From Gemmata massiliana (lineage in GTDB: Bacteria > Planctomycetota > Planctomycetia > Gemmatales > Gemmataceae), in contig NZ_LR593886.1 of the NCBI RefSeq assembly GCF_901538265.1, forward strand, positions 496,001-560,000: 64,000 nucleotides of DNA, read 5' to 3'. Shown here piece after piece: positions 24,222 to 26,856 of the stretch. The notes below the pieces were generated by a model, which saw only the letters and a program-made list of their open reading frames with translations, did not search any database and had not been told where the DNA came from. Both the position numbers and the translations under genes were made by a program. Numbering within the stretch: position 1 is the stretch's first letter; the number at the start of each line of letters is the position of its first letter.

Positions 24222-25250
24222 TCACTTCTCCCCCGCGCGTTCCTTGAGCAACTTCGCGGCCGCGCCGGTGTGGAACTCCCACGTGCGCATCCCGCTCTCC
24301 TCGACCGCTTTCGGGTCCGCGCCCGCGGCGAGCAACAGACGCACCGTCTCCACGTTTTTGGAGAGCATGAGAGCGTTGCGCCCGGAGTTGTACTTCTGAG
24401 TCGTCTTCGCATTCACGTCTGCCCCGCGGGCGAGTAGCAGCGAGACGAGCTTCACGGCCGCGCGGTTCGCGGCCCACAGGAGCGGAGTGAATCCGTCCGC
24501 GTCGCGCGAATCAACCGCGGCGCCTTTATCGAGTAGAGCTTCGGCCAGTTTCACGTTCTGGTGCGACATGACCCACCCCGACCGAATCGCGGCGTACTTC
24601 AGTGGATCGCTCTTTTCCTTGTCGGCCAGATTCACGTTCGCGCCCTGCGCAATCAGGTAAAGCGCGACGTCCAGTTTGTCACTCACAATGGCCGCGATGA
24701 GTGGCGTATAGCCGTACTGTCCGCGCCCGTCGAGTTTCGCCTTCGTCGCGACGAGGCCCTTCACTTTGTCCAGGTCGCCGGCAATCGCGGCTTTCACCAG
24801 TTCGGCGACCGACGCCTTGGCCGCAGATTTCTTTGGAGCAGGTTTGCCGTCGTCGACCTGCGTGGCCTTGACCTTCCCGCCGCTGTCTGGCGACAGGTCG
24901 ATGAACACCTTGCGCTTGTCCATGACCGTGTCGAAACAGCCCTCACCGATGCCGTCGCTCCACTGGCCCTGCGTGTCTTCGATCAGCCCATGGAGTTCGT
25001 CTTTGGCGAGTTTGCGCGCGCTGATGAATTCGGACACGACGCGCAGTTTCTTCGCTGCGGCGTCAAACACGAGCGTCACCCGTCCGCCCTTCAGTTCCAG
25101 GTCCGCGATGTCGCCGTGGTGGTACTTGGCGCACGTTTCTTTGCCGGAGTGAAGCCCGTCGAACGTGCCGAGCCGCTTGGCGTCGGTGATCGGCTCCTCG
25201 GTCGCGTCGTCGGTGACTACGACCGGGCCGCTAATTGTAATGGTGAACAT
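24222..25250 (-). CDS. Ankyrin-repeat protein with novel N-terminal domain
   Basis: The 342-aa protein has no signal peptide and starts at the ATG at 25250. Residues 1-130 are an unrecognised beta-rich domain (DLELKGGRVTLVFDAAAKKL, GIGEGCFDTV). After a Lys/Pro/Ala linker, ankyrin repeats begin near residue 145: AELVKAAIAGDLDKVKGLVA, GYTPLIAAIVSDKLDVALYL, GANVNLADKEKSDPLKYAAI, GFTPLLWAANRAAVKLVSLL, and GRNALMLSKNVETVRLLLAA. This gives about five repeats for protein binding in the cytoplasm. Its partner is unknown. The 143 bases to the next gene show no structure of note. Confidence 0.8.
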   Translation of the reverse strand: MFTITISGPVVVTDDATEEPITDAKRLGTFDGLHSGKETCAKYHHGDIADLELKGGRVTLVFDAAAKKLRVVSEFISARKLAKDELHGLIEDTQGQWSDGIGEGCFDTVMDKRKVFIDLSPDSGGKVKATQVDDGKPAPKKSAAKASVAELVKAAIAGDLDKVKGLVATKAKLDGRGQYGYTPLIAAIVSDKLDVALYLIAQGANVNLADKEKSDPLKYAAIRSGWVMSHQNVKLAEALLDKGAAVDSRDADGFTPLLWAANRAAVKLVSLLLARGADVNAKTTQKYNSGRNALMLSKNVETVRLLLAAGADPKAVEESGMRTWEFHTGAAAKLLKERAGEK

Positions 25251-25336
25251 GGCTTACCTTGGGTTGGGAGAAAACCGTTACGGTAAGCGACCCACAATAC
25301 CGAATCTATCTCAGAGAAAAACATCTCTTGGGCAAC

Positions 25337-25354
25337 GGCCGGTGTGAGCCGGCC
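25337..25354 (-). terminator. Weak hairpin after the PEP-CTERM gene
   Basis: A 6-bp GGCCGG/CCGGCC stem with a 6-base loop lies about 40 bases past the stop codon at 25394 on the minus strand. It is short and has no U-tract. Confidence 0.3.
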
Positions 25355-25393
25355 GGAGTGTTGACAGTGCTTCTCCCAGGCACACGAACCGAG

Positions 25394-26101
25394 TTACGCC
25401 AGTGCCACAACTCGCTGGCGTCGCGCGTAAATGACGAGCGTACCGGCACCGGTCACGAGCAGCACCCAGCTACTCGGTTCCGGGGTCGATACGGCGGTCG
25501 GGTTCGATGCGGGCGAGGGCGGGCTGGCGTCGAACCCGTCCGCGAAACTCCACCCGTCCCACGAACCGTCCTTCAGGATGCGACCGGACATCCCCGTACC
25601 GCTGTACCCCCAATCGTTACCGGGGTCTTTGACCCAGTAGCTCCAGTACCCGGTCCACCACCCTTCGCGGTAGAGGTCGCCCGGGTCGGTCGGCGACCGA
25701 CCATCGGCCAGCCCGCCGTCCCGGTCCGCGGACGCGATCCCGTTCGTGAACGTGAGCGTCGGCGACACGCCGAACATGCCGTTGTGGTTCGCGTCGAACC
25801 CGATCCCGAACAGCGCGAACCCCAGGCCCGTCCCAAAATCCCCGAGATTGGCGTAAAGTCCGGTGTTGGACCCGGTGATCGCCCGGAGCATGTCCTCCGC
25901 GGTCGCCGTGCCGTCCCACCGGTACCCCCAGATGAACGACGAGGTTCCGGACGCGGTCTTCCAGTCCACCACGAACGCGGCGCGGTTGCTCCCCGTCCCC
26001 ACCCACACGTCGACGTCATCGAGGGATGTAACGAACCCGGCCTGTGCGCTGCCCGCCAGCCCCAACAACACGCCGAGACAAAGAACCAATTGCCTGAACA
26101 C
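25394..26101 (-). CDS. PEP-CTERM-sorted surface protein under a cobalamin riboswitch
   Basis: I choose the GTG at 26101 because GGAGG lies six bases upstream; the frame opens at 26140. The 235-aa protein has a signal peptide (FRQLVLCLGVLLGLAGSAQA), a beta-rich body with DVDVWVGTGSNRAAFVVDWK, SFIWGYRWDGTATAEDMLRA, FALFGIGFDANHNGMFGVSP and GWWTGYWSYWVKDPGNDWGY, and a C-terminal TPEPSS signal, hydrophobic segment and RRQR tail. The body is unlike known enzymes. The upstream cobalamin riboswitch on the same strand implies control by vitamin B12. A surface corrinoid-binding or uptake role is an inference. Confidence 0.75.
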   Translation of the reverse strand: MFRQLVLCLGVLLGLAGSAQAGFVTSLDDVDVWVGTGSNRAAFVVDWKTASGTSSFIWGYRWDGTATAEDMLRAITGSNTGLYANLGDFGTGLGFALFGIGFDANHNGMFGVSPTLTFTNGIASADRDGGLADGRSPTDPGDLYREGWWTGYWSYWVKDPGNDWGYSGTGMSGRILKDGSWDGWSFADGFDASPPSPASNPTAVSTPEPSSWVLLVTGAGTLVIYARRQRVVALA

Positions 26102-26441
26102 ACGAGCCTCCGTTCCCCAGTACCAGCGGGGGCCGCTCACCGCACGCGGCGACGCGACCGCCCGTTCGTTCCGGGACGTAAGCCGTTGGTGCCGGCGTTT
26201 CCACGCTAATGGGCCGGGGAAGTCGCGCTTCGCGACTACGATGAGGAGTTCGACCGGGGTGAAACCACAAACCGCGGCGCTAGCGCGCCGGGAACGGGGA
26301 ACGCACGGGCTGCTCCTTCTGCCGGGCCGGGCGAGGAAACGCCTACGGGCCGGGACGGACGGGCAGCGCCGCGCACGCGCGCGGGCAGAGACCTGCCGGT
26401 CCGGTCGCCTGGGGTCCGAGGCACCGAACGACGATTACGAC
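26102..26441 (-). other. 340-base leader between the riboswitch and its gene; no gene seen
   Basis: This stretch, read on the minus strand, is the RNA between the cobalamin aptamer and the GTG at 26101. It is GC-rich and holds no convincing small ORF. The GGAGG ribosome binding site for the PEP-CTERM gene lies at its end. An expression platform for the riboswitch should be in this span, but I could not identify a clear switch hairpin by eye. Confidence 0.5.
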
Positions 26442-26610
26442 AGGCAGGTCTTCTGGCTTACGGCCTGTATCGGGTTCGAGCGGCCTTCCCGCGGTGCTCC
26501 CGCAGTGGCATTGTGCCCGTTCCCGGCCGAATACAGCAGCGGCCCTGCGCCGGATTCTCACCGGCTTCCCTTTTCACCCCCGCCGCGTGAACGACGGGGA
26601 CACCTATCGA
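26442..26610 (-). promoter_or_regulatory. Cobalamin (AdoCbl) riboswitch
   Basis: Read on the minus strand, the element starts near GATAGGTG at 26609-26602, continues through AAAAGGGAAGCCGGTGAGAA and TCCGGCGCAGGGCCGCTGCT, then the AATGCCACTGCGGGA segment (the GCCACTG B12 box), then GCGGGAAGGCC, and ends with GTAAGCCAGAAGACCTGCC near 26442. The GCCACTG, GGGAAGG and GCCAGAAGACCTGCC elements occur in the usual order and spacing of cobalamin riboswitches. It lies 341 bases upstream of the PEP-CTERM gene on the same strand, the only gene it can control there. Whether it acts on translation or transcription is not clear. Confidence 0.9.
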
Positions 26611-26856
26611 GTGGGGTGAGTTATACGCGACCGGCGCACCACGTCTAGAACGGCCAAAAACTTCACCGCACAAACATATCTGGCACTGGTTTGCGCGTTG
26701 CCGCGCGCAAACAATTGGCAACACCGGTACGTGCCCGGGGCCGGCACGAGTTTTCGCCCGGCGGATTGCTTTCACCGCCCCGGACGGTTAGAGATGATAA
26801 ATGCCCGTGTGTTTCCGTTCACAGAATTGAATTGCGCGACACCAGAGGGGGGATAC

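Follow-up and report, generated by a model that had tools for sequence, protein, structure and literature searches.

A cobalamin riboswitch precedes a gene for an exported PEP-CTERM protein with an unnamed, B12-uptake-associated domain in Gemmata massiliana

Results

Riboswitch, leader and gene in the Gemmata massiliana window

We analyzed a 64,000-nucleotide stretch of the Gemmata massiliana genome (contig NZ_LR593886.1, positions 496,001 to 560,000; hereafter the window), in which a cobalamin riboswitch on the minus strand precedes a gene for an exported PEP-CTERM protein. In a cmscan search of the whole window, exactly one Rfam hit exceeded its gathering cut-off, that of the Cobalamin family RF00174 at 26426-26622 (minus strand), which scores 113.9 bits against a cut-off of 31.5 (E-value 8.9e-28) and covers all model positions from 1 to 189. 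A first-pass annotation, made from the sequence alone, had placed the aptamer at 26442-26610; the full-length match bears this out, with the earlier boundaries being slightly short. We rejected a chance riboswitch on the grounds of this score and of the association with homologues described below. The B12 box, AGACCTGCC, occupies 26443-26451 within the 3' portion of the aptamer, and its exact complement, GGCAGGTCT (26389-26397, the anti-B12-box), lies 45 nt downstream and is a candidate expression platform. The leader (26102-26425) is long, since ~325 nt separate the aptamer from the start codon; a consensus scan of positions 25250-26800 recognized neither a sigma-70-like promoter nor a terminator-like site on the minus strand.

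The gene (25394-26101, minus strand) encodes a protein of 235 amino acids. The listed open reading frame (ORF) spans 25394-26140, and the most likely start is the GTG codon at 26101, which is preceded by GGAGG; the in-frame V-F-R-Q sequence at this start is also present in relatives from two other genomes, Gemmata sp. IIL30 (G009) and G011. The protein consists of a signal-peptide-like N-terminus recognized by eye (MFRQLVLCLGVLLGLAGSAQA, 26039-26101), an unnamed domain of ~170-180 residues associated with B12 uptake (25490-26029), and a PEP-CTERM tail for recognition by exosortase (25418-25489). The tail, in which a hydrophobic stretch and a basic end are visible by eye, scores 18.4 bits with TIGR02595 (cut-off 16) and 18.2 bits with PF07589, just below the cut-off of 20.7, in agreement with the earlier description of the product as an exported PEP-CTERM protein. 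The body of the protein has no Pfam family at E ≤ 1, no NCBIfam model above cut-off and no Protein Data Bank (PDB) sequence match at E ≤ 10, and PDB searches with the single protein and with two profiles gave no credible match.

The next gene on the same strand encodes an ankyrin protein (24222-25250) and is kept in G009. In the G011 stretch it has no match at E ≤ 1e-10, with the domain gene and the more distal GSDH gene still present there; for this reason the riboswitch probably leads into a single gene, as originally proposed.

An unnamed domain in Planctomycetota and Bacteroidota

When the order was searched with a single sequence, the domain was detected in 4 of 102 genomes. A contig scan yielded six loci, namely Gemmata sp. 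IIL30 (loci L009 and G009 are one record, counted once), four Bacteroidales loci and the Terriglobus locus L014, the last of which was discarded as a member for its match being limited to the C-terminal tail. A six-row profile detected the domain in 19/392 genomes of Planctomycetota (20 genes, the weakest scores reaching E 2.7e-4) and in 8/395 genomes of Bacteroidota; no relative was found in viral contigs. In the window, the domain is placed by a profile match of 308.5 bits, the window sequence being itself a row of that profile, and by alignments A1, A2 and A4. The trimmed alignment A4 comprises 31 rows and excludes L051, L012, L013 and L085 as copies or a tandem form; the near-identical loci L050/L051, L059/L060 and L011-L013 are not independent. 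Among the motifs found in most rows are WxGxGxNxAxxVVDW, WGYRWDG, TxxDMLxAI, GYWSYW and LxDGSWDGW. By eye, many planctomycete copies end in a PEP-CTERM tail or a variant of it, and TIGR02595 matches 10 of the 31 rows at E ≤ 1. The body of the window protein is a genuine unnamed domain. The tandem form (L085, 6349-7479) is a Bacteroidota protein with two domain copies straight after a cobalamin riboswitch, and it has no adjacent btuB by tblastn.

The absence of an enzyme motif noted in the first-pass annotation holds for the 31 members as well: beyond single weak matches, exemplified by Amidohydro_3 (1/31 members, E 0.005), no enzyme family was recovered. A B12-controlled enzyme acting on corrinoids or surface polymers would fit a body without assigned function that has conserved Asp, Trp and Tyr residues, and the Amidohydro_3 match points the same way. 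However, sequence searches of Pfam, NCBIfam and the PDB assign no enzyme family to the window protein, none recurs among the 31 members, no catalytic pattern is discernible by eye, and those neighbours that could be identified are of transport type, which together make an enzymatic role very improbable.

Cobalamin riboswitches upstream of the domain genes

The homologues were collected purely by protein sequence. The planctomycete set comprises 23 genes, i.e., the window gene, the genes of G009, G011 and G006, and 19 more genes from 18 genomes. An RF00174 match at cut-off lies upstream on the same strand in 17 of the 23: the window gene, all three of the G009, G011 and G006 genes, and 13 of the 19 further genes, for which the distance to the match is within ~1.6 kb. 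An extra gene separates the riboswitch from the domain gene in G006 and possibly elsewhere. Of the remaining six genes, four have upstream matches below cut-off to RF01482, which represents AdoCbl riboswitches in the RF00174 clan (E 0.0001, 0.007, 0.06 and 0.15, two of them weak), and no other match was listed at E ≤ 1 in 67 kb. Loci L064 and L057 have no Rfam match upstream of the domain gene; L064 shares a conserved block with the four RF01482-type loci. In the Bacteroidota, RF00174 lies upstream in 11/12 loci (4/4 and 7/8), mostly heading an operon, and in the locus that lacks it the contig stops ~1.5 kb upstream. Given the observed density of RF00174, chance alone would place an element on the same strand and no more than 2 kb upstream of a random site in 0.008 of 22 genomes. 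The recurrence of a cobalamin aptamer ahead of homologues, which the first-pass annotation had named as a check of its idea, was therefore strongly borne out in both phyla. In the 21 host genomes besides that of G. massiliana, 16 of 31 RF00174 elements precede the domain gene, and in 8 of the 21 (one of them, G261, 61% complete) the domain gene stands behind the single RF00174 element found.

Two divergent leaders were observed in this set. In 5/5 loci of family f91 (L052, L054, L062, L063 and L064), the domain gene is preceded by an abbreviated AdoCbl-like element that scores below threshold and contains a strongly conserved block; this element is possibly a cobalamin riboswitch variant not yet described. 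The leader of L057 (6560-6990, minus strand) resembles a cobalamin riboswitch with a long insert by eye and is missed by Rfam even at a permissive threshold.

Exact complements of the B12 box lie 42-46 nt downstream in the leaders of the window gene, L006, L007 and L008 (9, 9, 12 and 10 nt, respectively), that is, in 4/4 leaders of the domain gene within the window's own family. Shuffled downstream regions reached an equal complement length in 5, 3, 0 and 2 of 200 cases, respectively. L006 is a close relative, and its anti-box is not independent; the anti-box is kept although the G006 protein shares only 55% identity. Among 20 other leaders, five of which lack a recognized standard box, no exact box complement of at least 9 nt was found (longest 0-8 nt). 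By eye, the B12 boxes of L015 and L017 are each followed by a near-complement. The exact anti-box is no general proof because it is confined to the domain-gene leaders of the window's own family; within this family it suggests that competition between box and anti-box may operate. Judging from the riboswitch class, the window gene would be repressed by B12, as are the B12-uptake promoters that the accessible text of PMC12751083 reports as tested in Bacteroides thetaiotaomicron.

Domain genes beside B12-uptake genes in Bacteroidota and ECF transporter genes in Streptomycetaceae

The domain recurs beside known B12-uptake genes in the Bacteroidota. In L010, the riboswitch is followed by genes for a TonB receptor, a BtuG-like DUF5074 protein, a BtuH-type protein and a 1442-residue protein, which has the domain at its N-terminus and then, by Pfam, a DUF5074 propeller and Ig domains. 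The best PDB matches of the btuH product are 8BLW chain B and 7BIZ (the latter at E 3.7e-59), described as the BtuB1G1 complex, whose BtuG1 bears a BtuH domain, and as BtuH2, respectively (PMC10404256, PMC8941943, as far as their accessible text goes). By tblastn, btuB, btuG and btuH occur together with the fused propeller in four of eight further Bacteroidota loci (L078, L079, L081 and L082); L080 and L084 have btuH and the propeller, L083 has the three btu genes without the propeller, and L085 has none of these.

A search of plasmids with the L010 domain (tblastn) gave three weak matches, every one in Streptomycetaceae (E 0.006 to 0.04). In Streptomyces sp. SAT1, the riboswitch is followed by the gene for a 911-residue protein that joins the domain to a prenyltransferase-type toroid; then come genes for another domain protein, the T component of an ECF transporter and an ATPase of the ABC type. 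In Embleya (L094), the riboswitch precedes a toroid gene and then the domain gene; for the other copy in L094 and for that in L095, no riboswitch reaches gathering level upstream within the stretch examined. Aligned with hhalign, the domain family matches the Streptomycete domain at 97.9% probability (E 5.9e-13, from five rows of low diversity), which on profile evidence ties the family firmly to this domain of Streptomycete B12 loci. A second cobalamin riboswitch of L094 (6454-6674) precedes an 842-residue ORF that resembles cobalamin-independent methionine synthase and lies next to a domain gene.

Neighbours of the domain gene in planctomycetes

Among planctomycetes, the order of genes in G006 is riboswitch, DUF1559 pseudopilin, domain gene, DUF6580-like gene and PF01497-like (BtuF-like) gene. 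In G462, a DUF6580-like stretch lies ~0.24 kb behind the domain match (tblastn, 30% identity, E 5e-8), and L053 has a weak BtuF-like stretch ~5 kb from the domain gene (tblastn). A gene for a BtuH-like protein stands immediately 3' of the domain gene in L053, L055, L060 and L061. These proteins match BtuH in hhalign at 92.1%, partly across the signal peptide, with five unrelated sets staying below 1%; phmmer with the L055 protein reached no 7BIZ match at E ≤ 1, and tblastn gave only weak matches, the best at E 2.5e-4, in a comparison from which the L020 row, translated in a wrong frame, was left out. We therefore call these neighbours BtuH-like only tentatively. Weak, sub-cut-off dockerin matches occur near the end of the L053 and L055 proteins, among three scanned.

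A prepilin-like gene is among the next two same-strand ORFs in 8 of 19 planctomycete loci by a crude greedy rule of ORF choice (three of the 19 have no downstream sequence), and six of seven such neighbours scanned pass the Pfam N_methyl threshold, with one below it. In several planctomycete families, prepilin-like (N_methyl/DUF1559) genes were observed behind cobalamin riboswitches and beside the domain gene, as in L017, L020, L048, L049, L050, L053, L055, L057, L058 and L060. Their adjacency wants a proper count, since DUF1559 genes may be abundant in planctomycetes. The PEP-CTERM tail and the prepilin-like neighbours, together with the DUF1559 pseudopilin behind another cobalamin riboswitch of the G. 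massiliana genome, would also suit a B12-regulated adhesin or pilus-tip protein that is made on B12 shortage and holds B12-producing partners rather than B12. However, the fusion to a BtuG-type propeller and the linkage to an ECF transporter favour a small molecule as the ligand, and we give this explanation hardly any credence.

B12 economy of the host genome

The host genome (10.1 Mb in one contig, 98.9% complete; congeneric with Gemmata sp. IIL30) carries four RF00174 elements, including that of the window. One of them (L015, 4223-6745) heads genes for a DUF6580 membrane protein, a PF01497 (BtuF-like) protein and a PF01902 protein, which may be the B12 import genes of Gemmata, with DUF6580 as a candidate membrane component. 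Another (L016, G000:C1:3392104 on) precedes the large chain of a ribonucleotide reductase; the gene after it presumably encodes the small chain, and the enzyme is apparently B12-independent and turned on under B12 shortage. The fourth (L017, 4473-5604; G000:C1:8516472 on) precedes the gene for the DUF1559 prepilin-like protein mentioned above.

Profile searches of this genome found no CbiC, a corrin-ring marker (positive in 7/14 controls), and no TonB-dependent receptor (positive in 3/14 controls). They returned four matches to B12-binding domains, three of them above cut-off, and three exosortase matches (PF09721, best E 2.8e-64). Given the lack of CbiC, the presence of B12-binding domains and the lack of a TonB receptor, B12 is probably imported, and by a route other than BtuB.

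Remote similarity to DUF4430

In transcobalamins, the C-terminal domain is DUF4430 (PMC4350170, in its accessible part). According to the accessible text of Burroughs et al. 2007 (PMC1796856), secreted transcobalamin-like bacterial proteins, with planctomycetes named among their hosts, are predicted to scavenge B12, and toroid fusions, CbiO/CbiQ-type neighbours and missing B12 synthesis are reported for them. The profile of the domain family matches planctomycete DUF4430 proteins in hhalign at 67.8% (E 4.9e-5, score 34.7), co-linearly over 99 columns. As controls, 200 column permutations reached at most a score of 23.0 and 8.1%, and a reversed alignment gave 0.1%; profiles of BtuB, BtuG, BtuH, the BtuF-like protein, DUF6580, DUF1559 and the propeller all stayed below 1% against the domain family. 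The first of two AlphaFold models, itself of low confidence, opens with a beta-grasp-like strand-strand-helix arrangement (pLDDT 51-66 per block, the rest lower). On balance, the domain is a remote relative of the DUF4430-type domain and probably functions in a similar way, with a transcobalamin-type fold being plausible. Genomes with DUF4430 (23/392) and genomes with the domain (19/392) do not overlap within Planctomycetota; no mutual exclusion is claimed, since chance predicts roughly a single shared genome.

Discussion

A role of the protein in B12 acquisition is, judged from context, close to certain. Scavenging of B12 is very probable, because the gene stands behind a riboswitch and the domain recurs beside B12-uptake genes in distant bacteria, and direct binding of a cobamide by the domain appears likely. 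The first-pass annotation had suggested a corrinoid-capture protein, an idea to which the riboswitch association and the neighbouring btuB, btuG-like, btuH, DUF6580, PF01497 and ECF genes lend genomic support. We propose, at odds of about two to one (a probability near 0.66), that the product of the window gene is a surface protein, repressed by B12 and processed by exosortase, which captures cobamides and delivers them to an uptake system, in a host that is probably unable to synthesize the corrin ring and in which no TonB-dependent receptor was recognized.

We infer the direction of regulation, the binding, the fold, the hand-over and the importer role of DUF6580, and picture the sequence of events as follows. 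When B12 is scarce, the aptamer would be empty, the B12 box would be free to base-pair with the anti-box further downstream, and the gene would be on; with B12 bound, the aptamer would hold on to the box and expression would drop. The signal peptide would export the protein, and exosortase would process its PEP-CTERM tail. The body would then bind a cobamide alone or as one half of a clamp, the other half being the propeller in Bacteroidota, the alpha/alpha toroid in Streptomycetes and possibly the BtuH-like protein in other planctomycetes. Finally, the cobamide would pass on to the products of the separately riboswitch-controlled DUF6580 and PF01497 genes.

The alternative that has to be weighed most carefully is a member of the B12-uptake regulon that does not itself bind the vitamin and serves as a scaffold presenting or docking the real binder. 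Its model is BtuL of B. thetaiotaomicron, which, in the accessible text of PMC12751083, bound no cobalamin despite its riboswitch-regulated operon. In 7/8 Bacteroidota loci, the domain gene has BtuH- or BtuG-type genes as neighbours or fusion partners, and in 8/19 planctomycete loci it is followed by a prepilin-like gene. However, in 8/21 host genomes the domain gene stands behind the sole RF00174 element found; the relative from Streptomycetes is joined to a toroid in the manner of transcobalamin; and the conserved aromatic motifs WGYRW, GYWSYW and DGSWDGW could make a ligand site. We consider a scaffold unlikely and retain cobamide capture as the preferred reading.

Several observations weigh against cobamide capture by a transcobalamin-type domain. 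BtuL demonstrates that a B12-operon protein need not bind cobalamin. RF00174 is present in 83/95 genomes of the host family and the domain gene in 4/102 genomes of the order; the gene is therefore an optional member of the regulon, and most relatives do without it. As a comparator, none of 20 planctomycete DUF4430 loci (20 of 28) has RF00174 in stretches of 2.0-3.2 kb. The Pfam DUF4430 model (PF14478) matches none of the 31 members, the profile similarity to DUF4430 is moderate, and the match of the Streptomycete domain to DUF4430 (80.2%) is unconvincingly aligned in its second half. The Streptomycete relatives themselves surfaced initially as weak tblastn matches. The DUF4430 profile reached no transcobalamin chain in PDB at E ≤ 1, so the transcobalamin link rests on the Pfam family and on the papers cited above, and the two AlphaFold models are poor (pLDDT 42 and 38). 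Because the Pfam model, the PDB retrieval and the AlphaFold models count against it, we keep the domain out of DUF4430. The hand-over step is weak because the BtuF-like gene is under every NCBIfam cut-off (35.4 of 234 bits for the BtuF model) and its product has no signal peptide by eye; by tblastn, the planctomycete loci other than G006 and G462 have no adjoining DUF6580 or BtuF-like gene. The probable B12 auxotrophy of the host, finally, rests on a single marker gene.

Planctomycetes are a large case of the problem of how B12 auxotrophs without TonB receptors bring such a large vitamin across the envelope. We tentatively sketch, as a possible but doubtful answer, a TonB-independent outer-surface route, in which a transcobalamin-like domain anchored by exosortase would act with a BtuH-like protein and dedicated pseudopilins, all under cobalamin riboswitches, to feed a DUF6580/BtuF-like importer, with a kindred domain joined to the propeller and BtuB in Bacteroidota and to the toroid and an ECF transporter in Streptomycetes. 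Such a capture apparatus might perhaps take the form of a B12-binding pseudopilus. The unnamed domain occurs in two phyla and has a relative in a further one. B12-controlled and combined with varied partner modules, it offers a single testable candidate binder; if it is of true transcobalamin type, this B12-binding family would extend to exosortase-anchored and propeller-fused surface proteins. In the open-licence literature, to which the search was confined so that reports may exist elsewhere, we found no paper connecting the domain or PEP-CTERM with B12; one paper names both "cobalamin riboswitch" and "PEP-CTERM", and the PEP-CTERM genes in its accessible text adjoin c-di-GMP switches.

Comparison with known systems

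Parallels to the window protein exist among the surface proteins BtuG, BtuH and BtuJ and among the SLBB proteins. BtuG, BtuH and DUF4465 were each tested as its identity and rejected. BtuH and BtuJ (DUF4465) are lipoproteins that act as accessory surface binders of B12 operons, and btuH adjoins the domain gene in Bacteroidota. However, the profile of the domain is similar to that of BtuH at only 0.07% (hhalign), DUF4465 is not among the families at E ≤ 10 for the 31 members, and the GTPAYF loop of DUF4465 (motif from the accessible text of PMC13398666) is missing from the domain by eye. BtuG, the DUF5074 propeller of Bacteroides, is also a riboswitch-controlled surface protein of B12 uptake, and a BtuG-type propeller is fused to the domain in L010 and, by tblastn, in 6/8 further Bacteroidota loci. 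The window protein has no match to the PF16819 propeller, and the host genome has no match to a TonB receptor. The analogy to BtuG drawn in the first-pass annotation is thus apt in its logic and does not extend to homology of the window protein, despite the propeller fusions in Bacteroidota.

The Streptomyces SCO2322 family (NF040672) has the YWSYW...DG.W region in common with the domain. NF040672 matches 15 of the 31 members below cut-off (best E 2.7e-4), the window domain scoring 18.7 bits against a cut-off of 85, and the Streptomycete copies too fall well under this cut-off. The planctomycete form differs from the SCO2322 family by having no toroid and by its PEP-CTERM tail. The DUF4430/transcobalamin domains of the SLBB beta-grasp clade are likewise B12-linked and exported, and the toroid fusion is seen in the Streptomycetaceae relatives of the domain. 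B12 synthesis is missing from the bacteria described by Burroughs et al. (PMC1796856, accessible text), and the Gemmata host is likewise without the corrin-ring marker. In comparison with DUF4430, the domain is larger, carries inserts and an exosortase tail, and is encoded behind a cobalamin riboswitch.

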